NCBI RefSeq assembly: GCF_040954645.1
Contig: NC_092810.1
Coordinates: 12,572,377 to 12,636,376 of the forward strand
Length of the DNA stretch: 64,000 bases
Source of the DNA: Diabrotica undecimpunctata
Lineage: Eukaryota; Arthropoda; Insecta; Coleoptera; Chrysomelidae
Direction: 5' to 3'
The position numbers and the translations under genes were made by a program. The notes beneath the pieces are model-generated. The model made no database searches. It saw nothing but the letters and a program-made list of their open reading frames with translations, and had not been told where the DNA came from. Shown here piece by piece: positions 18,458-57,110 of this stretch (positions are counted from its first letter, which is position 1; every line of letters starts with the position of its first letter).

Positions 18458-20046
18458 TTTGACAAAATATTATATTGGAGACAGAAAAAAAACTACGACG
18501 ATGGAGAGAGTACATCGAGGAATTATTTCATGACCAGAGAGAAGCTAGTACATCTTTAGATAGCCAAACGGGAGATGTATGCCCAGAGATAACCAAATCA
18601 GAGGTTAGTCGAGCATTAAACTCAATGAAAACAAATAAATCTGCTGGTCCAGATGAATTACCAAGCGAGCTATTAAAGTTGGTCAACGAGAAAAAAATAG
18701 ACATAATAGTAGAACTGTTCAACGCTATCTATACTACGGGAATCATCCCTAGAGAAATGTTGACATCAGCATTTGTGTGTTTGCCAAAGAAAATAAATTC
18801 TAGAGTGCAGTGACTATCGAACCATAAGCTTAATGTCACATACCTTGAAAATTCTGTTGAAAATTATCCACGTCAGAATTCACACTAAACTGAAGCTGGA
18901 TATTAGTGACACACAATATGGGTTCCACAATGGTATGGGTACCAGAGAGGCACTATTCTCCTTCAACGTACTGATGCACAGATGTTTGGATATGAACCGT
19001 CCTCTTTACGTTTGTTTTATAGACTACAATAAAGCGTTTGATAAAGTAAAACATGACTGACTCATGGAAATTCTAAAAAATAAAAACCTAGGTGAAAGAG
19101 ATTTAAGGCTAATAACAAACCTTCATTACAATCAGCCAGCAAAAGAGACATCTGAAGAGATGGAAATAAAGAGAGGAATCAGGCAAGGCTGCATACTATA
19201 ACCTCTATTATTTAACGCTTATTCTGAAGAGGTAATTCAAGAAACTCTGGAAGATGAAACAGTCGGCATAAGAGTAAATGGAGCCTTAGCTAACAACATC
19301 AGATATGCAGATGTTACAGTAATAATAGCCGATATTTTACAAGACCACTCTCGCTCAATATCAAAAAGACGAAGTTTATGAAAATTTGTAAAAACAACCA
19401 TAATACTAACGAAACCTTGACAGTAGAAGGCCAGCAGATCGAAAGAGTAAACAAGTACACTTACCTAGAAACACTTATAACAAAAAATATTGACTACACT
19501 GCAGAAATCAAAGTCAGAATCGAAAAAGCACGTTCTAATTTTATGAAAATGAAAAACGTCCTATGTGGCAAAGATTTAACATTAGCTCTTAAAGTACGCC
19601 TAACAAAATGTTACGTATATAGTGTACTATACTATGGAGTGGAATCATGGACGTTAAATCTAGACACAATGAGACGACTTAACGCCTTTGAAATGTATAC
19701 CTATAGAAGAATTATGAGGGTTTCCTGGGTAGATACAGTTACGAACAATGAAGTACTGAGAAGAATAGTTAAAGAGAAGAAAGTTGAACTTACAATTAAA
19801 GAAAGAAAGCTACAGTATCTCGGACATGTGATGCGGGGCGAGAAGTATGGCATCCTGCGACTCATATTGCAAGGAAAGATAGATGGCAGAAGAAGCATCG
19901 GAAGAAGACGAATTTCATGGCTCAAGAACCTGAGAGAATGGTTTGGATGCAGCTTAAAACAACTATTTAGAGCTACTGCCTCAAAAATTAAAATAGCTAT
20001 GATGATTGCCAACTTCTGTAGCGGAGATGGCACCTGATGAAGAAGA
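18458..20046 (+). mobile_element. 5'-truncated GAA-tailed LINE, subfamily G1
   Basis: Frames give, in order, RRWREYIEELFHD; NKSAGPDELPSELLKL; QYGFHNGMGTREALF; CFIDYNKAFDKVKH; RGIRQGCIL then PLLFN; RYADVTVIIAD; then the open frame 19378-20037 with YTYLETLITK, YGVESWTL, FEMYTYRRIMRVSW, LQYLGHVMRG and GRRRISWLKNLREWFG. The catalytic box reads Y-A-D-V, so the second aspartate is lost, and stops interrupt the frame near 18810 and 19060. It ends with (GAA)n at 20038-20050. The duplication AGAATGACAATA occurs at 18446-18457 and 20047-20058. The endonuclease is absent. Confidence 0.88.
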
Positions 20047-43980: not shown

Positions 43981-44743
43981 TGAATGACTCCGAGCCACAA
44001 CCTAATTTAAGACGTTGTCACGTCAATAACACTCCTACCAAAATATTTTAAAAAGTATATACAAAAAAATATTGAAAATATGTAGGGAATGGACTATCCT
44101 AAATATAAATAGTTAATAGTAGTTTTGTTGTCATTATTGAAAAATTCAGTAATACTGGATATCTTCAACATATGTTTACTAGCCATTATAAACTCATTGA
44201 CAATGAAAAAAGACTAAAACATTAATTTATAATAATTATTAATTAATTAGTTAATTATTAATATTTTTCAACTTAGTAAATAAATGCAATGATTTATTGA
44301 TTTATTTAAAAAAACCCTGATAAAAACAACAAAATACCTTAAACCTTAAAATATGAACATTCATAGTAAATATCTTAATATACTTTGATATTTTTACCTC
44401 ACAAATTCACGAACAACAAATAATACCAATCACACAGAATGAACCTTCATAACCAAACGTTCATATCCAAAAATATTTATTCTTCAAACAATTAAAAAAA
44501 CCAATATTTCCAACTTCTTAAGGGTCAAATACACACAAATTAGAAATGTTTGGAAAGGTTTTTAAAATGCCCGCCTATTCTGACGCCAGACTTAAGTAGT
44601 CCATTCTAGCACAGCATATTATTCCTTATGTTATGCTGTGATCGTTTGACCTGTGATTCTAGGCTTAATATAGTTGTCAAGTTGTTAGGGAAATCTAGGG
44701 AAATTTTGGCAAAAATTCTAGGGAATTAAAAAAAAATCATCTG

Positions 44744-46470
44744 GCAACGTAACGCTTTTACATATTAATTTTATAGTTCTCCCATTGACTGGGGGTTTAA
44801 CTGAACTACTTGAATTATACTCCATTTATACACTGCTTCTAATTTTGTTTTTTTTAATTTTTAGTATTTTAATTTCATAGTCAGATTTCTTTTTTTCTAC
44901 GGTATTGATAGTACCTGGTAGACCCTTTTATTGTAGTCAACAACCCACTGTCTAATAGATTGTTTAGTCTATTTCTTGCATTGATACTTTACGTCCACTT
45001 CAGTTGCTCTCAAACTAACACCCTAATTATTATAGACAGGTTTAAGTGTGAGATCTGGATTATGCAATCCAGTTAAAATATTAGATATGTCATATTTAAT
45101 CAGTTGATTTCCTATAGTAGTGTCAGTTGGACCTTTGGTCAATGCTTATTTACATAGAATTTTGAAATGTGCAGACCACATCTCCATGATTGTGACTGCT
45201 TATCCAAGCTGTCATATGTCACATGTCACTTTAACATTTCCGTTAATACCGGGAGCCATTCTCTTTCCTGTTGCCAACCAGAATGTAGCTTCGACTATTT
45301 TTTAAATAATTTTAAACTGTTTGTCCTTGTTTAGTGTAGTGTTATGTACAATTTTATGATTATAACATTCTGCGATTGTTGGATAGCCCAAAATTGACAA
45401 AGTAAGTCTTAAACGTAAAAAAAAACTTTTTTCATCTATTAACTTCAAGTTTTTTGTTTTAGTTAATCAATTTCTACATTTAAATAAACGTTTCTTGGCT
45501 TATTTCAGATGCCCCTGTAGATGCTCTAGGAAGCGAAAGTACTTGGACAAGATTTCATTAATAAAACTGTGCTCGATATCTGCCTTTCATTTTATCAAAG
45601 TTAATCGTATTTTATAGAACATGTAGAAGAACAGATATCGCTAATATCTCTTTATATAAGACGAAAATCCTTTTTATCAATAGAAGAGAGAATGTTTTTA
45701 AATATTGTACATACTTTAATGCTATTTACTTGTCTCAATGCAGTTTGGGTAGCACCTTTTTCCAGCTACAATTATAAAAAATTTTAACAAGAAATATAAA
45801 AGTGGATTATTTTCGCGTCTTAAACTTAATCTGCCCTAATAAACTCAATTTAAAAAATATGCAACTTCCGCCACAGCTTTTCTCTCGCACCGTCACTTTT
45901 TGATAACTTCCCTTCCCTTTGTTTGCGCCTCGTCACAAGTGACGCCCAACGTATAATATTATTAAAAACTTAGAGAAGGGATCCGGCTTCAATTTCGTGC
46001 TCAGGACACATCCTAATTTGCTTTTGATGAGAAATTGACAGTAAGTTAAGAGTTTGCTCTTAGAAATTCTCCAAATAACGCGACATTTCGGTTTGTGGTC
46101 ATCCTAAAATTCATTTAAAATTTATAAAGTGTGTAGGGGTCGAATTTTCGCTGTCATTGTTTCAAAAACATGTATGAATTATTTAGTTTCGTAGAGACAA
46201 GTTTTAGTGCTCAATTTTAGAAAAAACCTTTATAAAGTATTTTTATTAAATTTACAGAGCAAGTGAGGGCAATAAAAAGAACGCCCCAATATTAGTAAAA
46301 AAAATATTGGCCATTTTCTAACAGCTCCATTCTGCTCTAGTAAGCCAGAAATCCGTAATTGGATTGAGCTAAAATGAGTAATCTTCGCTTTAGTGTTTTT
46401 TTTTGTGTCGATTTGGCTATTTAAAATGTTTTCTTACAATTTTTTTATTCACTAACTTATGTTAGTGTCT
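44744..46470. other. No gene recognised
   Basis: AT-rich sequence. Frames such as 45120-45305 show no family resemblance. A slightly GC-richer patch lies near 45880-45950. Confidence 0.4.
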
Positions 46471-46507
46471 AGCTTTGCGCAGTGGCGATATCGTAACCAA
46501 TGAGGTT
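46471..46507 (+). ncRNA. U4 snRNA 5' fragment (retropseudogene part)
   Basis: AGCTTTGCGCAGTGGC followed by TATCGTAACCAATGAGGTT matches the first ~37 bases of spliceosomal U4 snRNA (stem II and start of the 5' stem-loop), with the expected first base at 46471 and about three differences from the human sequence. Homology ends at GAGGTT, and LINE endonuclease coding sequence begins at once. It is not a functional U4 gene. Confidence 0.85.
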
Positions 46508-47608
46508 AATATGATCATAATGAACACATATTTCGAAAGAAAAAAAATACACAAGGAAACATGGATATCGCCAGATAAAAGGACTAAAAACCAAATAGAC
46601 CACGTGCTCATCGAAAAAGAAGAACAGCAATGTATAAAGAAGATAAGAACATATAGAGGACCAGACGCTTACTCAGATTATTACATGGTGGGCATCAAAA
46701 TTAAGCAACTGATACCAGAAAACAAAAACAAAATAAAAGAAAAGAAATGTGTAAATAACCCAATTTGATTAGCAATAAAGAAAGAGCAAGAAATTTACAA
46801 GGAAATAATGGAAATAGAACTAAAAAAGATATAAATAGAAGAGCAAACTGAGAACAAATGGGATAACATAATAAAAAGGGGAAAGACTGGTTCGACATAG
46901 AGTGCCAAAAAGATATAAAACTAAAAAAATCATTAAGGATGGAAATGATCACGAAAGAAACAACAGAGACAAAGAATAGATATATGGAGCAAAGACAAAA
47001 AGTAAAGAGGTTGTTGAGAGAAAAGAAGAGAAAACACATAGAAAATAAGTTAAAAGAAATTGAAGAGAACTACAGAACTAAAGAAATAAAAAACCTATAT
47101 TCAGGAGCTAGAAATAAAAAAAGAGGTTTCTAACAAAAATCCATATTTGTTAAAAACAAAGCAGGAAATAATAAAAGCAGTGGAGCAGAAATAGTCGAAA
47201 GATGGAAAGAGTATTTTGATGAATTACTAAATGGCAATAATAAGTCAAACCGAAGAGAATGTATGGGAGCAGAAGCAAGAATCGAAGATTTAGAAGACAT
47301 AGATAATTCACCCAGCAAAGAACAAATCGAGGAAATCATAAAAAATCTGAAAAACAACAAATGCCCTGAAAGCGATAACATAATAGCAGAGATGACGAAA
47401 TATGGTGGAGAATGGCTAAATGATTGGATATACAAGATCATAAAGGAGGGATATGGATAAAAAACAAATACCAGAAGATAAAAAGGAAGCAATTATTTGC
47501 ACATTACACAAAAAAGCAGACAAAATAGGATGCAGTAATTACAGGAAAGTAGCGTTACTAAATACCGTATATTATTTCCTAATAAAATCCATAAAAGATA
47601 AAGTCAGA
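46508..47608 (+). mobile_element. LINE fragment (endonuclease C-terminus to early reverse transcriptase) fused to U4
   Basis: MIIMNTYFERKKIHKETW and KRTKNQIDHVLIE are the last conserved blocks of a LINE apurinic endonuclease (the NQIDHVL segment). A charged linker follows (46930-47130), then ERWKEYFDELLNG, EIIKNLKNNKCPESD and, in a shifted frame, VALLNTVYYFL. It resembles the G2/RTE-like group. The copy stops at about 47608, where an R1-like reverse transcriptase begins. Confidence 0.75.
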
Positions 47609-47611
47609 TAG

Positions 47612-49490
47612 CTATCTTCTTTTCTATTTAAAACGGTGGAAAGGCTTCTTGATAGGTACATCAGAGACGAAGTGCTAAAAGATAATTCTCTAAGCCATCG
47701 TCAATATACATACCAACCTGCTAAATCTACTTACTCTGTATTGCATGATCTAAATAGGCTCATCTCAATATCTCTAAGTCAATAAAAGATAATGAAAAAG
47801 ATAGCAGTGATCGCTTTTTTGGATGTAGAAGCGGCGTTTAATAACGTTAATACCAGCTCTTCTATAGGGGCAATGAGTAGACGAGGTGCACCTGCGGTAA
47901 TATGCAGATGGATAAGGGCATCCCTGGAGAATAGGACAGTAATGTCCACTCTGGGTAAAGCAACCATCAAAGCAAGAGTAGGTAGAGACTGTCCACAAGG
48001 AGGAGTTTTGTCCCCATTACTTTGGGCAACCTTGGTAGATGATGTCCTCAGAAATCTGTCCACAGAAGGCTTTTATTGTGATATACCGACGACATAACAA
48101 TCGTCGTCAGGGGCAGGTTTGCTCAGGTGGATAAGAGAGACTGATAGTCAATGTTCAAAAAATACAAATCGTTAATTTCACCAAAAAAAAAAAAAACTGC
48201 ACTACAAGGCCTAAAACCACCGGTGCTGGGAGGAACAGAGATTTTATTTGCCAAAGAAACAAAATACCTTGGAAAGTATTTTAATCATAGGCTTACATGG
48301 AATACTCAGATTTTGAAAACCACACAAGAAGCTACTATGTCCCTGGTTAGATGTAGAAGAATTGATAACTTAAACCCAAACTGACTCTATGGTTATACAC
48401 AAAGGTTATTAGACCAATGATAACCTATGGCTTGGTAACTTGGTGGACCAAGATACAGCAAGTGGGAGCAACAAGGTTGCTAGGTAATACACAAAGGTTA
48501 GCATGCCTGTGTATTACGGAAGCCATAAAAAAAACTCCTACTGCATCGTTGGAAGTCCTGCTGAATCTACCACCACTTCTTATCTTCATACAGGCCGAAG
48601 TCAGATCAGTGATGCACATATTAATCCATAGTCAGCGACATATAAGCCAGATGCATGGTTCTGACAACAGAAAGCTAATCTAGGAGCTAAATGCCGATAT
48701 TGTGATGGGGCGACCTATCGATGCGACAGCTACGAGATATAGCTTTAACAATAAGTTCACAATTAAGATACCAGGCAGGGAAGATGTGGGAGCCGGCATA
48801 GTAGGAACAAATCAAGGGATACATTTCCCGGTAGTCTACTTAGATAAACCAGGAGACCATAGCAAGGTTACAGTAGTCTGAGTACTGGGGCACAAGGATC
48901 ATAAGGGCAATGAAAAAGCAGATGAAATGGCCAAGCAAAGCTTATCAATGTCATTACTTGGACCGAAACCCTTTTGCGCGGCATTGCAAAGACAGTAACA
49001 AGAACGGCTACAAGGAAGTAAGCAGCTCACAAATTTCTGGAATGGTGAAGGAATTGACCAGGACAAAGAAAGGCGAAAGAAACAGTTCATTACAAAACAT
49101 TCGCCAAAATTTATGGCAAACCTAATAAGCAAAGACAGGAAAACAGTCAAAGCAATAGTAGGTCTTCTAACAGGGCACTGTAAGCTGAATAGGCACTTGA
49201 AGCTGATGGTATTATCAGATGACGACTTGTGCAGATTCTGTCACCTCGAAGAAGAAACAGCAGAGCACATTCTATGTCAGTGTGACAGTCTGACATATGT
49301 GCGGTTCTTTGCATTAGGAGAAAAAAATCCACCGGCAAATACCTACATGGAATGTACAGACTCGAAGCTATTAGAGTTTTTAAAAAGGGTTAGGCTAGAT
49401 AATGTTATCTAGGACTAAAGGACCACAATAGATCTGAAAAGGTCGCAGTGGAGAATAGGCCAAAAGGCCACCTCTCTGAATCTATGTATA
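47612..49490 (+). mobile_element. R1/LOA-like LINE, 5'-truncated
   Basis: It starts in the reverse transcriptase (FLFKTVERLLDRYIRDEVL, YQPAKSTYSVLHDL), then AFLDVEAAFNN, DCPQGGVLSPLLW, and in a shifted frame TDDITIVVRGRF (catalytic box). Next come TKYLGKYFNHRLTW, YGLVTWWTK and the RNase H end GHKDHKGNEKADEMA. Last is a C-terminal zinc-knuckle-like stretch (CRFCHLEEETAEHILCQCDSL, 49230-49290). The frame changes several times and stops are present. The 3' end is near 49490. Confidence 0.82.
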
Positions 49491-49981
49491 TAATAAATGA
49501 ATTTCTTTGAACGTTTCATTAAAACAAATTCTACTAATGTAATTGGAAATGAAGTGTGGAGTAGGTACAAAACAAAAATATTTTACAAGACTAAATATAT
49601 GGTAAAGTAAACTATAAAATTTCCATTAAGCTATACCTTTGGAAAAGTAGATTATAAGATACAAAACAAAAATGCTCTCATATGCTGTATCTTTGGCAAA
49701 GTAGATTATAGGATACAGCTTAAGAAATGGTTCGGTATTGTCACTTTTGGATATTTATATATAAATATTTATATATGTACGATCACAACACATCATCATA
49801 CTACAACTTCGCCTTCTGTATTAAAACAAAATACTTGTTTTTACACTAATACTGGATAAAACTTACCAGCCTTTTTCTAATCGGCATTCACTAGGCAAAC
49901 ATCTTATAAACAATTGTGACTAACTTTAAATGATCACTATAGATGGCAGTACTATTAGGTTTTTGAGTTAGTAGACGTATA
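49491..49981. other. Non-coding; short imperfect repeats of about 54 bp
   Basis: CTTTGGAAAAGTAGATTATA near 49637 and CTTTGGCAAAGTAGATTATA near 49691 are copies of one unit, with a more decayed copy near 49600. Otherwise nothing recognised. Confidence 0.45.
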
Positions 49982-50001
49982 TTGAAAATACCTTGGACAG
50001 A

Positions 50002-50435
50002 TGTCATCAAGTGCCACCAATCACGCACTTCGATGTTCATCGCCCTTCCTTCTGGAACATATAATTAAATTTAATTGGTTGAGAAATGAAAAAGTTTCAT
50101 ATAAAAGTTAATTTATCTTTAAATATGGGACATTTTCGGATCTCAAGTCAGTAGTGTACAGTACATGGCTTTACCCGTGTAGGGTAGCTCCCTAGAGCAC
50201 TTTGCTCGAAGGGCTCTGAATCTTTCTAAGACTCTAAGAATGTGTTTTATTTCCACCTCTAATAAAACCATAATGGCATTGTCTCTTCAAGATAATGCCA
50301 CAATAAGAGCGTACCGGCCAACTACGCAATATTACACTATATTGCGCAATAGTTGGACAAATTAATAAACATGGAATTTTTGCACCAAGTTGCTAAGACA
50401 TTTTCATACGTTTATTAATTAGACCGGAGACGACA
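50002..50435 (+). repeat. 5' LTR, family B
   Basis: TGTCATCAAG to GACGACA. It contains TATAAAAG (50100-50107), TCAGT (50148-50152) and a hairpin with a GGCATTGTCT stem (50275-50299) just after AATAAA. It is nearly identical to the 3' LTR apart from a roughly 10-bp length difference near the end, which suggests a fairly recent insertion. Confidence 0.92.
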
Positions 50436-50474
50436 TGGCGCCCAACCTTCAACGAAATCTACCACGACTCCGAG

Positions 50475-50702
50475 ATGTTAGAGTTCTCATGCTCCGCGAT
50501 CGAAAATCGCAAAAAGTTCCAACACGATGCCTGCATCAAAACCACTCAAGAAAATAGCGGGGAGAAGCATCGGATGTTAGTACACCAAACTAACATGCCG
50601 ATGTTCACCTTCTGCATCCCTGAAACCGTCGATGTACCATATCTCCGACGAGCCAGCCTACTTGATGCTAAGTACCTGATGCAATGGATGTCTCCGCAGT
50701 AG
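50475..50702 (+). CDS. 75-codon open frame in the family B interior, unknown product
   Basis: The frame lies shortly after the primer-binding site, where gag would begin. It contains LEFSCSAIENRKKFQHD and VDVPYLRRASLLDAKYLM. I recognise no gag motif, zinc knuckle or protease. A second frame downstream (to about 50880) is rich in E, D, A and H residues and may be the tail of a former polyprotein. It could equally be non-coding. Confidence 0.3.
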   Translation: MLEFSCSAIENRKKFQHDACIKTTQENSGEKHRMLVHQTNMPMFTFCIPETVDVPYLRRASLLDAKYLMQWMSPQ

Positions 50703-51102
50703 CCAGTCACTGCCTGCCCTACCATTATGTGGTCCAGAGCACCACGGAGGCTCAGGCAAACTCACCGGCGACACGCAGATGGGAAATGTACAGCTAGAGA
50801 GGACGAAGCCGCCGTAGAAGAGCACGTCGTCGAGGATGGACCTGCAGATGCTGTCAACAACACCGACCACCGCCTGTGAGTGTTTTTGTGCAGTGCAAGT
50901 GCGCGCTACGCGAGTGTACGCGAGTGTAGTGTGTGTTGGAGAACTGTAAGTTGATTTGACAATATAGACATATACATTTTTGATATATTTTATGCATTTT
51001 TTTTCTTTTCTATATTTGGATTGTAAAAAAATTGTTTTTCTTAAGTTTTTTTAATAAAATCAGCTTTTTTTATCAGCCTCAGAGTCTCCAAAGCAGGGGG
51101 GA

Positions 51103-51526
51103 TGTCATCAAGTGCCACCAATCACGCACTTCGATGTTCATCGCCCTTCCTTCTGGAACATATAGTTAAATTTAATTGGTTGAGAAATGAAAAAGTTTCA
51201 TATAAAAGTTAATTTATCTTTAAATATGGGACATTTTCGGATCTCAAGTCAGTAGTGTACAGTACATGGCTTTACCCGTGTAGGGTAGCTCCCTAGAGCA
51301 CTTTGCTCGAAGGGCTCTGAATCTTTCTAAGACTCTAAGAATGTGTTTTATTTCCACCTCTAATAAAACCATATTGGCATTGTCTCTTCAAGATAATGCC
51401 ACAATAAGAGCGTACCGGCCAACTACGCAATATTACACCATATTGCACAATAGTTGGACAAATTAATAAACATGGAATTTTTTCAGAGACATTTTCATAC
51501 GTTTATTAATTACACCGGAGACGACA
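51103..51526 (+). repeat. 3' LTR, family B
   Basis: Copy of the 5' LTR, preceded by the polypurine tract and followed by the CAGA target duplication. The hairpin is at 51376-51400. Confidence 0.92.
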
Positions 51527-51896
51527 CAGACAAAGTAACAAATAGTGAAGTTCTTCGAAGTATGAACAAAGAACAGGAGCTGTTTATAACTATTAAGAGA
51601 AGAAAGTTGGAATATTTTGGTATTTTTTTGTGATGAGAGGGAAAAAGTACCGATTGCTCCAGTTAATTATCCAAGGAAAGATTCAGGGCAAACGAAGCGT
51701 GGGGAGACGACGTATATCTTGGCTGCGCAATTTAAGAGACTGGTTCCAGTGCACATCTAACCAATTATTTAGATCAACAGCTTCAAAGATACGAATAGCA
51801 ATGATGATTGCCAAACTCCGTAGCGGAGAGGGCACTTGAAGAAGAAGAAGACGTATAGACAAAAACAAAACAGACAATAGTGAGTAAATAATTTAA

Positions 51897-52016
51897 AAGA
51901 TCATCATCATCAACCTGTATGCGCCCACTGCTGGACATAGGTCTCCCTCAGCTCTTTCTATCTATCACTGTCTGGTACGGTATGCATCCAGTTATTTCTA
52001 ACACGCTTCAGGTCGT
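51897..52016 (-). pseudogene. RTE-like LINE, 3' end fragment
   Basis: On the minus strand this reads GGGAGACCTATGTCCAGCAG, then GTTGATGATGATGAT. This is a 3' end I associate with insect RTE elements, with a (GAT)n tail. About 100 bp remain, running into the palindromic region at 52010. Confidence 0.7.
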
Positions 52017-54870
52017 TAAACAATGTGTTTATTTTGTAAATAAAAAAAACTATGTTCAAACGGAGTATAACGATATCTAAAATAAATATTTTCAATAGGA
52101 GATTTATATACAGGGTGAGTCATGAGGAACTTTACATACTTCTACCATAAGTCCCTCAGGGAGCATATCATGTGGCCACTAAAAAATGTCAACTCCTTTT
52201 CTTTATTAATTAACAGGGTGATTTGTGTAATTGACCATTTATTTCATTTTACTGTAGTGTTTATACGGCTCATTTGATTTTTTTAATTTTTGCATGATAC
52301 AGTACACTACTATCAAGCATTCTACTGGTATTAGCGAAACTAAAAAATTCCAGGACTGGCTTTGGAAAAATTAATTTAGGGATTCGTATTAAATATTACA
52401 CCCTGTATAAATTTTTTTTAAAATGCAATAAGGGATTTTCAAACTACATAAATAGCCAATGAAAACGACATATGCGACAATGTTGTCGCACTTTTATTAA
52501 ATTTTTAGTGAACGATCAAATCTTACCAAAAATAGAACAACCATAATGAAGTATCAAATTATAAGGTATTAATTTAAACAAATGTTATAAATTTCAAACA
52601 TTTTAATTAAAATGAGTTCCTACGACATAATCTAATACGTAGAAAATTAACATCTTTACTGTCACTTTGTATTATCTCTACGATAGAATCAATTGTTTTT
52701 CAATTTTTAATTTTTACTCATAGATCGTATTGGGGCATTATTTTCGATAAATAATAAATTAAATTGATTAAAAAGTCAGACCTCTTGTATGTGTTAGTTT
52801 TTGTTGATTGTAAATGATTAAAATTTTATGTCAAATAATAATACATTGCATCTGCTGTACTAAATAAAAATAAATCTAAAAAAGTTTAAAAGGTTGGCGT
52901 TGATCGTTTGACGTTTCTTGATATTTTATACCCATTGTCATTATTGTCATTATCAATTATTATTTATGTGTACAAGAATACATATTTCTTCTGTCATATC
53001 TACGTTAAGTACATTGTGTTAGTTTTGGTAGAGCTTTTGTTACTTTCGTTCAAAATGACACATCAGTTTTCGACCACAGAATATGCAGACATAATATTTG
53101 TTTATGGATTCTGTAATGGGAATGGTAGTGCTGCTAGTAGAGAATATCGCAGGAGATTTCCTAATCGTCGAACTCCCAGTCATCCAACATTTGGGTCAGT
53201 TTTTAATTATTTGCTGGCACTTTTTCTAGTGGAACAACAGAGCGACATGTAGATGAAGCGCAGGAAGATGACATTATGGACACCGTTACTATGAACCCTA
53301 CAATAAGCACTAAACAAGTAAGTCGAGAACTCAATGTTACTCAATCAAAAGTAAGTAGAGTCTTACAAAAAAATAATCTATACCCATATTACATTCAAAT
53401 GGTTCAGCGACTACATGCTGGAGATGAGATCAATAGGTTGGAATTTTGTAGATGGATTAACAATAATCGACCAACGCTATACAGGACACTATTTACGGAT
53501 GAAGCCCAATTTACCAGAGATGGGATAAATAATTCACGAAATTCACATGTGTGGACAGAAGAAAATCCCCATGCTATTCGAGAACGTCGTTCTCAGTTAA
53601 GGTTTTCGGTTAACGTGTGGATTGGTGTCATAAATAACCAATTAGTAGGTCCTCACTTTTTTGATGGTCCTTTAACAGGGCAGGTCTATTTGAACATTCT
53701 ACAAAATATTTTGCCGAATTTGCTTGCCAACGCGAACGTTGCTATCCGAGGGATGTATTTTCAGCATGATGGGGCACCCCCACACTTTTTACTTTCAGTG
53801 AGACAACATCTCAATAATGTTTATGGCAACAGGTGGATAGGACGTGCAAGTCCTATTTCGTGGCCTTCAAGATCCCCTGATTTCAATCCCGTTGATTACT
53901 ATATTTGGGGACGATTGAAGCAACTAGTTTACGCAGTGAATATTAATAACCGACAACAATTAATTGATAGAATTATACATTGTTGTAATACTATTAGAAA
54001 CGATCCCCAGAGTATCCGTAATTCAATACGTCAATGAACAATTCGGCAACAAAAATGTGTACAGGCTGCAGGGTTCCATTTCGAAAATCTATTTTGAATT
54101 ATTTTTATTTTGTTATCATTATTGTATCTTTTCCAGTTCTAATTTATGGGTTTATCATAACTATGTACATATTTTTAGTTTTTTTTTTAAATTGTTCTTC
54201 GTTATTGTTAGTAATTACTGTTTTTTGTTGTGCAGTGACTCAGTTTATCATTTCAATTAAAATGTTTAAAATTTATAACATTTGTTTAAATTAATTACCT
54301 CATAATTTGATACTTCATTATGGTTGTTCTATTTTTGGTAAGATTTGATCGCTCACTAAAAATTTAATAAAAGTGCGACAACATTGTCGCATATGTCGTT
54401 TTCATTGCCTATTTATGTAGTTTGAAAATCACTTATTGCATTTAAAAAAAAAATATATACAGGGTGTAATATTTAATACGAATCCCTAAATTAATTTTTC
54501 CAAAGCCAGTCCCGGAATTTTTTAGTTTAGCTAATACCAGTCGAATGCTTGATAGTAGTGTACTGTATCATGCAAAAATTAAAAAAATCAAATGAGCCGT
54601 ATAAACACTACAGTAAAATGAAATAAATGGTTAATTACACAAATCACCCTGTTAATTAATAAAGAAGAGGAGTTGACATTTTCTAGTGGCCACATGATAT
54701 GCTCCCTGAGGGACTCTACATATGGTAGAAGTATGTAAAGTTCCTCATGACTCACCCTGTATATAAATCTCCTATTGAAAATATTTATTTTAGATATCGT
54801 TATACTCCGTTTGAACATATTTTTTTTTATTTACAAAATAAACGCATTGTTTGACGACCTGTAGCGTCGT
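52010..54870. mobile_element. DD41D Tc1/mariner-class element with very long inverted repeats
   Basis: Sequence from about 52010 to 52611 is repeated in inverse order from 54870 down to about 54252, with high similarity. Within the arms CAGGGTGAGTCATGAGG starts at 52111 and its complement ends at 54759, each flanked by TA (52109-52110, 54760-54761). Further CAGGGTG or CACCCTG boxes occur inside (52214, 52397 and mirror positions). The transposase gene lies in the unique middle. Confidence 0.82.
53055..54037 (+). pseudogene. DD41D transposase with a single frameshift
   Basis: The N-terminus [18 protein letters not shown] starts at 53055. Near 53210 one frameshift leads to the frame that runs open to 54037. 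In the 253-residue part from 53276 there is a helix-turn-helix (STKQVSRELNVTQSKVSRVL), TDEAQF (D75), QHDGAPPH (D165) and FNPVD (D207), which is 41 residues after D165. D,D41D spacing is known from the rosa/DD41D branch of Tc1/mariner elements. Apart from the frameshift it appears complete. Confidence 0.87.
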
Positions 54871-55499
54871 GTATACATAGATATATGTATACGTATATCT
54901 AATTCCCTTCTACCTATAAGATGTATTGATGTGTTAATAACAACCAATATTTTCAAAAACAATAAACCACGTTAAGCTTAAACTGGCACAGGATTATATT
55001 TTTAATCACGCATTTGTATGTAGTACTAAATTAAAATCATCACATTCGCAGTATCAGAATAGTTCTATCGTTGTAAATTTTAAAATACAATACATGTATC
55101 AAAAAACTCAGCATGATTCGAAAACATTGAAAATATTTAAACGAGAACGTTTTATTTGTATACAGTTGAATTGTTATTTTGTTCACACAATTACAAGTTG
55201 TCATAACATGTATTTTTCCCACTTTATAACGACACTTATGGATATATGTTATTTTATTTTTATTTGCTAAAATAAATTTTATAAAAAATTCGCATTTCCA
55301 CGAAATCACCGGATTTATCTATCTACTATCTAAATACGTATTTCTACTATAATAAAAAATTAAATCAATACCGAATTTTTATTTCCAACAACATAATTAG
55401 TTTAGCAAAATAAATTAGTTTTATGTTTTGCTGCTGATATATAAAAATGTTGGACGAATATATTTTTTGGATTCATATCAAACAAGTGTAATTACTCTG
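54871..55499. other. No gene recognised
   Basis: AT-rich sequence. The minus-strand frame at 55040-55309 has no motif and is probably chance. Confidence 0.4.
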
Positions 55500-57110
55500 G
55501 GCATCAGCCCATATATTGTAGTAATTAACTCTTAAAAGACAAATTAGGAAAAATTGAGATTCGAAACTTCTCTGGCGTGGGTTATAACACAAAGGAAAGA
55601 ATCATCATACCCTGACCTAGAATAATCTATTCTCAGTATATTTTAGGAAAGAGCTTGGCAATTATATACCATCATTTTTTTTGTTTAAATGGCATAGGCA
55701 AGTGCCATACAGCCAGTCACAACATGAAAATATACTACCCAGAAAGAAGATTGTGTAGTACAATATAAAAAGATAATATAAATTTCAAACTTAAGTAGCA
55801 TTACAAATTTTAAGCATTAAAATTATTATTAAGGATAGGATAGAGATAAAACATGGACACTCGTTTCTCGTCTAGGGACCCATCAAAACATTGCTTTTAA
55901 GACAAACTAGATTAGGTCACGGATAAAAGGTAATACCAAATGGGGTAAAACAGAGGTTAGGATTCTAATTACAGTTAAATATTAAGCTTACTTTTGCAAA
56001 TAAATTCCATCAAACTTTCATTTACAGCTCTTATAATAAGGGGTTTGCAGATAGCACATATTGCACGGAGGAAAAATTTTGATGTTGACTAAATTTTTTA
56101 TTAGACTTTCAGTTTGTTTTGTGTATTTTTTATATTCGAAGAAAATGTGATCTAGATTACTTTCTTTTTGACATTCTGGACATAAATTTGAAATTACGAT
56201 TGTTAGTTTGGACAGATGACTAGGATAGCAGGCGTGTCCAAATTTTATTCTAATTATGGATGTTATATACCTTCGTGGAACAGAATAATTTTTAAACCAA
56301 TAATCACTTGGGATTAAAGTCTGTATAGAAGCATATTGCGAGGAAGACTGCGTACTATATATATGCCAAGCTTGTTTCCATTTACTATTGATATTATTTT
56401 TAATTATTGTTAATGCCTCTTGTCTACAGATTTGGTGACCAGCTTGCGTTCCGGTATCAATGGCCTTCTTAGCTAATAGGTCAACATGTTCGTTGTATTT
56501 AAGACCTATATGTGCTTTAACCCACAAAAAATGAACAACTCTTCGGTTTTAATAAATGTCATAAACAAGTTATTTAATTTGAAAGACATATATATTTGAG
56601 TTATTACTAGGAAAATTTAATAACAGAGAGTAACATAATAGACAATGAGTCAGATACTATTGTAACAGATGTATTCTGAGTGTTTTCGAAGTATCTTAAT
56701 GCTTCATATATTGCTACAGCTTCAGCACTAAAGATTGAAAAACTAGGATTTAGTCGACAAAGTTTTTCTGTATTAGTTGATGGAATGTAGAAAGCACACC
56801 CAGTACCAACAATAGACTTTGAGGCATCCGTATAAATAACTAAAGAGTCTGACAGACTAGATAAACAAAACCTCAAAATATTTGAGCTAACGGAAGAATT
56901 TACATGGTAATTAGGTTGTATCACAGTTATGGGTTGCAAGCACGAATAAAAATGTTCGATGTTAAGATTATCCTCTGATTTAAAGTCATAATCAAAATTT
57001 GTCAGGCTTCTAAAAGCCTCACAAAGTGGAGGTGAGTTCTTAAGTCTCCAATACCGATTAGTTAAATCTTCTTCGTTCAGTTTTCTGATATTTTAGTAGA
57101 GAGTAGTGTT
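55500..57110 (-). mobile_element. I-like LINE, C-terminal region with RNase H
   Basis: The minus strand encodes LNEEDLTNRYWRLKNSPPL, then the RNase H domain: SLVIYTDASKS (D), FSAEAVAIYEAL (E), VTIVSDSLS (D) and, after a short decayed stretch near 56530-56606, WVKAHIGLKYNEHVD (H and D). A C-terminal zinc-binding-like region follows (LCPECQKESNLDHIFFEYKKY). All catalytic residues are present. The reverse transcriptase is not in the window. 55500-56017 is probably its 3' untranslated part. Confidence 0.78.

Follow-up and report, generated by a model that had tools for sequence, protein, structure and literature searches.

Within the window, the whole stretch of 64,000 nucleotides of Diabrotica undecimpunctata DNA analysed here, the first 37 nucleotides of the host U4 small nuclear RNA (snRNA) stand at the head of a composite unit. 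The U4 piece is followed by an internal fragment of one LINE and by the 3' portion of another, in that order and with all three parts lying in one orientation (Table 1). The snRNA starts at its exact first base and is joined directly, in sense, to a LINE that is truncated at that very point. The clade names used for the two LINEs, RTE for the first and R1 for the second, are background designations and not computed assignments.

Table 1. Parts of the composite unit and its two flanks, in window coordinates.
Feature	Coordinates	Strand	Basis
Left flank, single-copy host DNA	46230..46470	.	One match in the host genome, which is the flank itself (1 candidate)
U4 snRNA nt 1-37	46471..46507	+	Alignment to both U4 genes; end read as nt 37
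Internal fragment of RTE-type LINE, from the end of the endonuclease to the early RT region	46508..47601	+	Comparison of copies
5'-truncated R1-like LINE that keeps a complete 3' end and has a short tail	47602..49486	+	Comparison of copies; RVT_1 in 47786-48097
Right flank, part of a dispersed repeat	49487..49800	-	Other copies extend further to the left, past the insertion point

The original prediction, made from the letters of this stretch, placed the exact first base of U4 at 46471 and gave the piece about 37 bases, and both statements were borne out, since the piece is identical at 37 of 37 positions to the two U4 genes of the host, L039 and L040. A search of the window with the U4 5'-end pattern, allowing up to 3 mismatches, returned one match, where 100 dinucleotide shuffles gave 0.00 on average. 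At the Rfam gathering score there were no matches in the window, the U4 piece included; at a loose threshold U4 aligned from model position 1 at 46471 (13.4 bits, E 7.3), a weak score that is expected because the piece is so short, and the remaining three matches in the window had E values of 6 to 9. The window departs from U4 at nt 38, where the genes read GGTTTTTCC and GGTTTATCC and the window reads GGTTAATATG, although a BLAST search with the whole U4 gene extends the window alignment to nt 40 with one mismatch. The most parsimonious junction, 46507|46508, has zero bases common to U4 and the LINE, while allowing one substitution at nt 38 makes AT potentially common to its two sides.

That U4 runs straight into a LINE of the same orientation was confirmed by comparison with other copies of the element. 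With 46440-46700 as the query, 40 of 298 candidates were scored, comprising the window and 39 others, and the match started at 46508 in 38 of these others and at 46510 in the remaining one. None of the 39 carries the U4 bases, which disposes of the alternative that these bases are the 5' region of the LINE itself. The host assembly of 1.74 Gb yielded the U4::RTE junction a single time. A U4-headed SINE was likewise rejected, since many copies with the same junction would be expected and each junction was found once.

The far end of the RTE-type fragment was fixed by reading 29 copies, in 25 of which the match ended at 47601 (earlier in the other 4). This LINE had been predicted to end at 47608 against an R1-like element; the neighbour stands, but the boundary moves to 47601. 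Other copies extend upstream with endonuclease-coding sequence absent from the window and downstream with the remainder of the element, so that the fragment in the window has no 3' end of its own, and in one copy (L032) an ORF at L032:4613-6472 encodes Exo_endo_phos and RVT_1 domains. No further parts of this family were found in the whole window when it was compared with 29 loci of about 3.2 kb each, or in 44001-56000 when this interval was compared with seven 10-kb loci. Separately, approximately 51750-51851 matches at about 80% the 3' end of a different, RTE-like LINE that is inserted in L032.

The R1-like part had 828 candidates, 40 of which were scored; the 39 besides the window match it from 47612. 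In a looser comparison of these loci the match starts at 47598 in some, and the copies extend upstream; 47602-47611 also fits R1-like sequence by eye, with about 10 nt absent at 47611/47612, and we therefore place the RTE-R1 join near 47601. The 3' end stops near 49486 in a comparison of six copies, beside another repeat, and one copy of the element (L044) has EN, RT and RNase H domains. The first LINE does, as predicted, abut an R1-like LINE, and their join occurs a single time in the host genome at up to 3 mismatches. An R1-like insertion inside an RTE copy, with a duplication, was rejected: 0.146 of 500 random windows did equally well, and no RTE remainder was found.

The two flanks differ in kind. 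The 80 nt upstream of L039 strongly resemble the 80 nt upstream of L040 (a likeness reached by 0 of 500 shuffles), and this stretch common to both genes is presumably the promoter; the left flank of the unit shows no such relationship, since fractions of 0.92 and 0.46 of 500 shuffles equal its likeness to these two upstream stretches. On the right, 42 candidates came up for the repeat and 40 of them were scored, giving 44 matches elsewhere; 23 of these start exactly at query base 8, that is at 49487, and one at base 4. All five copies that were read extend to the left of the 49487 point. From reading alone, the repeat would be a piggyBac-like DNA transposon. About 0.9 kb lying to the left of the break, taken from one copy of the repeat, had no match in the window at E 0.01. 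Since the repeat breaks off at the R1-like 3' end and its far side is absent, we have to assume a deletion, either at insertion or later.

A target duplication flanking 46471 and the 3' end of the LINE or of the R1-like copy, which the original prediction had proposed to look for, was not found around the unit: the likeness of the flanks was reached by 0.386 of 500 random windows and, when judged against the target repeat, equalled by 0.113 of 1000 random windows. The motif CACTA-ACTTAT, considered as a possible remnant of the right-hand repeat on the left side of U4, was rejected as not significant on the same measure (0.113). Finding no target duplication counts against a chimeric retrocopy; at non-28S sites in Drosophila, R1 is described in PMC2718515 as making duplications of 2-14 bp. 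Two side observations concern other places in the window. Positions 19907-20045 have 72% similarity to a small insert (L083:164-302) found in one copy of the right-flank repeat, and 50000-50435 and 51101-51526 are direct repeats, 96% identical over 436 aligned positions and about 0.7 kb apart, which look like the LTRs of a short element.

Searching the host genome with the whole U4 gene gave four matches from four candidates, namely a pair of genes, 145 and 143 nt long, and a pair of 5' fragments. The genes, L039 and L040, are two variants: nt 39 distinguishes them within the first 88 nt, and there are more differences in their 3' part. The second 5' fragment, L042 (C4:30955601-30955689), lies on a contig other than that of the window, and it answers the suggestion that other U4-LINE junctions be sought in the host. 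Its U4 portion spans nt 1-88 as read (the search alignment runs to nt 89), with 3 changes relative to L039 and 4 relative to L040, and it adjoins, in sense, about 250 nt of a high-copy element that ends in a (GAA)n tail. Of 1513 candidates for this element 40 were scored; all 39 others start at the junction, the four copies read all extend upstream of it, and 1-2 nt at the junction are possibly common to U4 and the element. Further upstream in one copy of the element, 771 nt contain an ORF with an RNase H domain, and also a sub-threshold zf-RVT match. The element had no match to the RTE loci and belongs to a different LINE family. The left flank of L042 has no likeness to the sequence upstream of the U4 genes or upstream of the LINE, and no target-site duplication was found around this second fusion (0.32 of 500 shuffles). 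Elsewhere in the window, on the minus strand, 55851-55927 shows 78% similarity to a section of the LINE joined to the U4 portion of L042.

Thus both of the non-gene U4 copies found (2/2) lie at the 5' edge of truncated LINEs, which belong to different families, and that both are U4::LINE fusions supports template switching by LINE reverse transcriptase. We consider it probable that the unit in the window is a chimeric retrocopy made in this way, and we infer both the switch itself and which LINE drove it. The enzyme would copy LINE RNA by target-primed reverse transcription, leave the RTE RNA internally, at window 46508, for nt 37 of U4 RNA, and copy U4 from there to its exact 5' end (nt 1), after which the cDNA would be joined to host DNA. 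Template switching, already put forward in the original prediction, is still the best account of the U4::RTE junction and is strengthened by L042, although no target-site duplication accompanies it and the need to assume a deletion tells against it.

The places where the switches would have landed have a property in common. In one predicted minimum-energy fold of gene L040, the apical loop of the 5' stem-loop contains nt 37, and the breakpoint of the same type in L042, nt 88, is unpaired, just before a stem. Both U4 breakpoints would then be internal and unpaired, as reported for 3'-truncated snRNA copies, whose truncations fall in single-stranded segments according to Doucet et al. (PMC4476161). 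Internal landing in predicted loops, if the chimeric reading is right, would make it testable whether RNA halves or pausing set the breakpoints.

For the unit as a whole, we tentatively read the three parts as the product of a double switch primed by the R1-like element, from R1 RNA to RTE RNA to U4 RNA. Synthesis would then have run from the R1-like 3' end through the R1-like interior and the RTE interior to U4 nt 37 to 1. We prefer the double switch, which is only modestly favoured over two separate insertions, for the reason that of the two LINE parts the R1-like one alone retains an intact 3' end, and this end lies at the break in the repeat. The tripartite chimera that had been suggested is upheld as regards its three parts and their single orientation; a single event is possible, though no duplication common to the parts was found.

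Divergence within the two LINE parts bears on this choice. As references we used majority sequences built from 19 of 29 RTE and 17 of 29 R1-like loci, chosen by eye, with 10 and 12 loci excluded, respectively. Over all sites the window differs from these at 74/1092 positions in the RTE part and 152/1622 in the R1-like part (p 0.016), and at codon positions 1+2 at 59/728 and 94/1081 (Fisher p 0.73), the last two denominators, ~728 and ~1081, being taken as two thirds of the sites. Third positions account for 15 of the 74 RTE changes and 58 of the 152 R1-like changes, from which it follows that most changes arose after insertion. An equal age of the two parts, for which the similar values at codon positions 1+2 speak, would fit a single event; the difference over all sites speaks against it, and the higher all-site divergence of the R1-like part gives no help to its later arrival. 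The U4 piece is unchanged, as against 7-9% in the LINE parts, which is mildly surprising at that age (the chance at equal age being ~0.03-0.07).

The explanation that competes best, although we think it somewhat unlikely, involves two events: a one-switch U4::RTE insertion by the RTE enzyme, and a later R1-like insertion into the downstream repeat, accompanied by a deletion that took away the 3' end of the RTE element as well as the repeat's left half. A single deletion would cover both absent parts, and the left flank, being single-copy and no part of the right-hand repeat, agrees with such a history. This scenario predicts, however, a younger R1-like part, yet the R1-like divergence is not lower, a comparison that is confounded by subfamily age.

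Improbable, in our judgement, is RNA ligation, in which a U4 fragment cut in the 5' stem-loop would be ligated to RTE RNA before reverse transcription. The breakpoint in a predicted loop and the parsimonious junction without a common base would suit it, and PMC13174262 names ligation as an alternative for U6/L1; but ligation of U4 to RTE RNA alone leaves the R1-like join unaccounted for, because the RTE part is without the 3' end that its reverse transcriptase needs. Slightly less probable again is that a 3'-truncated U4 retrocopy landed by chance beside an older truncated LINE. Such copies are the largest human class in PMC4476161 (21 of 32 characterised for U4, its Table 1), and the host has many partial U2 copies that begin at nt 1 (10 of 22 matches). 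For chance landing, however, both U4 fragments would need to have struck a truncated LINE precisely at its 5' edge, and the window left flank is single-copy and hence not LINE, just as no LINE likeness was seen left of L042. It is very unlikely that the junctions are assembly errors, given a contig of 146 Mb, each junction found once, and the like fusion L042 on another contig. Finally, insertion of a LINE into a genuine U4 gene or a duplicate of one, which would explain the identity to both genes across 37 nt, was rejected as having next to no probability, because the piece is without the genes' upstream sequence, no other U4 remainder was found in the host or at the site, and the DNA to its left is single-copy, so that it is not a broken U4 gene.

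Other snRNAs of the host were also surveyed, with fly sequences as the queries for U2 and U6. All 16 U1 matches in the host span nt 1 to 163 or 164 of 164. U2 gave 22 matches, 9 full-length and 13 partial, and 10 of the 13 partial ones run from nt 1 to a point between nt 42 and nt 67; these may be 5'-fragment retrocopies, while ends near nt 67 may reflect mere divergence from the fly query. U6 gave 107 candidates on many contigs, and among the 40 that were scored, with 88-96% identity to fly U6, 25 span nt 1-106. A wider and more speculative possibility, which we think rather less likely than not, is that several host LINE types, the R1-like one included, routinely jump to internal positions of snRNAs made by Pol II (U4, perhaps U2), that snRNA retrocopies are largely 5' pieces heading truncated LINEs, and that the window holds a one-insertion double switch from R1-like to RTE to U4.

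If the chimeric reading is correct, template switching between snRNAs and LINEs would extend to U4 with an RTE-type LINE in an arthropod host, and the view, argued for human in PMC4476161, that sense-strand switching involves for the most part just U6 and U6atac would be weakened. In the same source none of 32 characterised human U4 copies is repeat-associated (its Table 1), which, like the argued limit on sense switching, speaks against the chimeric reading. There are very few U4 copies in this host (two genes and two fragments found), and every retrocopy is therefore open to examination.

Comparison with known systems brings out both likeness and difference. L1 is already known, from PMC13174262, to have U1, U2, U4, U5 and U6 as partners, and the U6/L1 and other mammalian snRNA/L1 chimeras consist, like the window unit, of a sense snRNA 5' end and a 5'-truncated LINE (PMC4476161, PMC13174262). 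The U6 pieces described there are typically full-length, whereas U4 is cut at nt 37 here and at nt 88 in L042, and most of those chimeras have flanking target duplications, whereas none was found around the window unit, which for this reason we do not assign to the canonical duplication-flanked U/L1 class. The snRNA-joined LINE of a canonical U/L1 chimera also keeps its 3' end; the RTE part in the window stops at 47601, unlike the LINE part of L042, which reaches its 3' tail. Human sense U5/L1 chimeras contain a 3'-truncated snRNA (ending at positions 83, 78 and 98 of 116), read in PMC4476161 as internal switching; the window differs from them in its snRNA, in its LINE type and in that no duplication was found.

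Non-L1 LINEs, RTE-like ones included, are joined to an snRNA in vertebrates too, as in the window: in Anolis U6 is fused to RTE-like as well as to L2-like LINEs, and in platypus to L2 (PMC4476161). Here the partner is U4 in place of U6, and the unit holds an R1-like element in addition. The tripartite fusions of Magnaporthe and mouse resemble the window in uniting three retrotranscripts, with no microhomology found at the switch sites in PMC2104539; they carry duplications of 14-16 bp, whereas none was found for the window unit. Titles and the beginnings of abstracts in the open-licence literature mentioned no snRNA-LINE chimera from an arthropod, which is weak evidence of absence. The widening of the picture foreseen in the original prediction is accordingly narrower than stated, U4/L1, U6/RTE-like and tripartite chimeras having been described before (PMC13174262, PMC4476161 and PMC2104539): fusion of an snRNA to a LINE is of a known kind, and it is the host and the LINE partners that are new, as far as searched.
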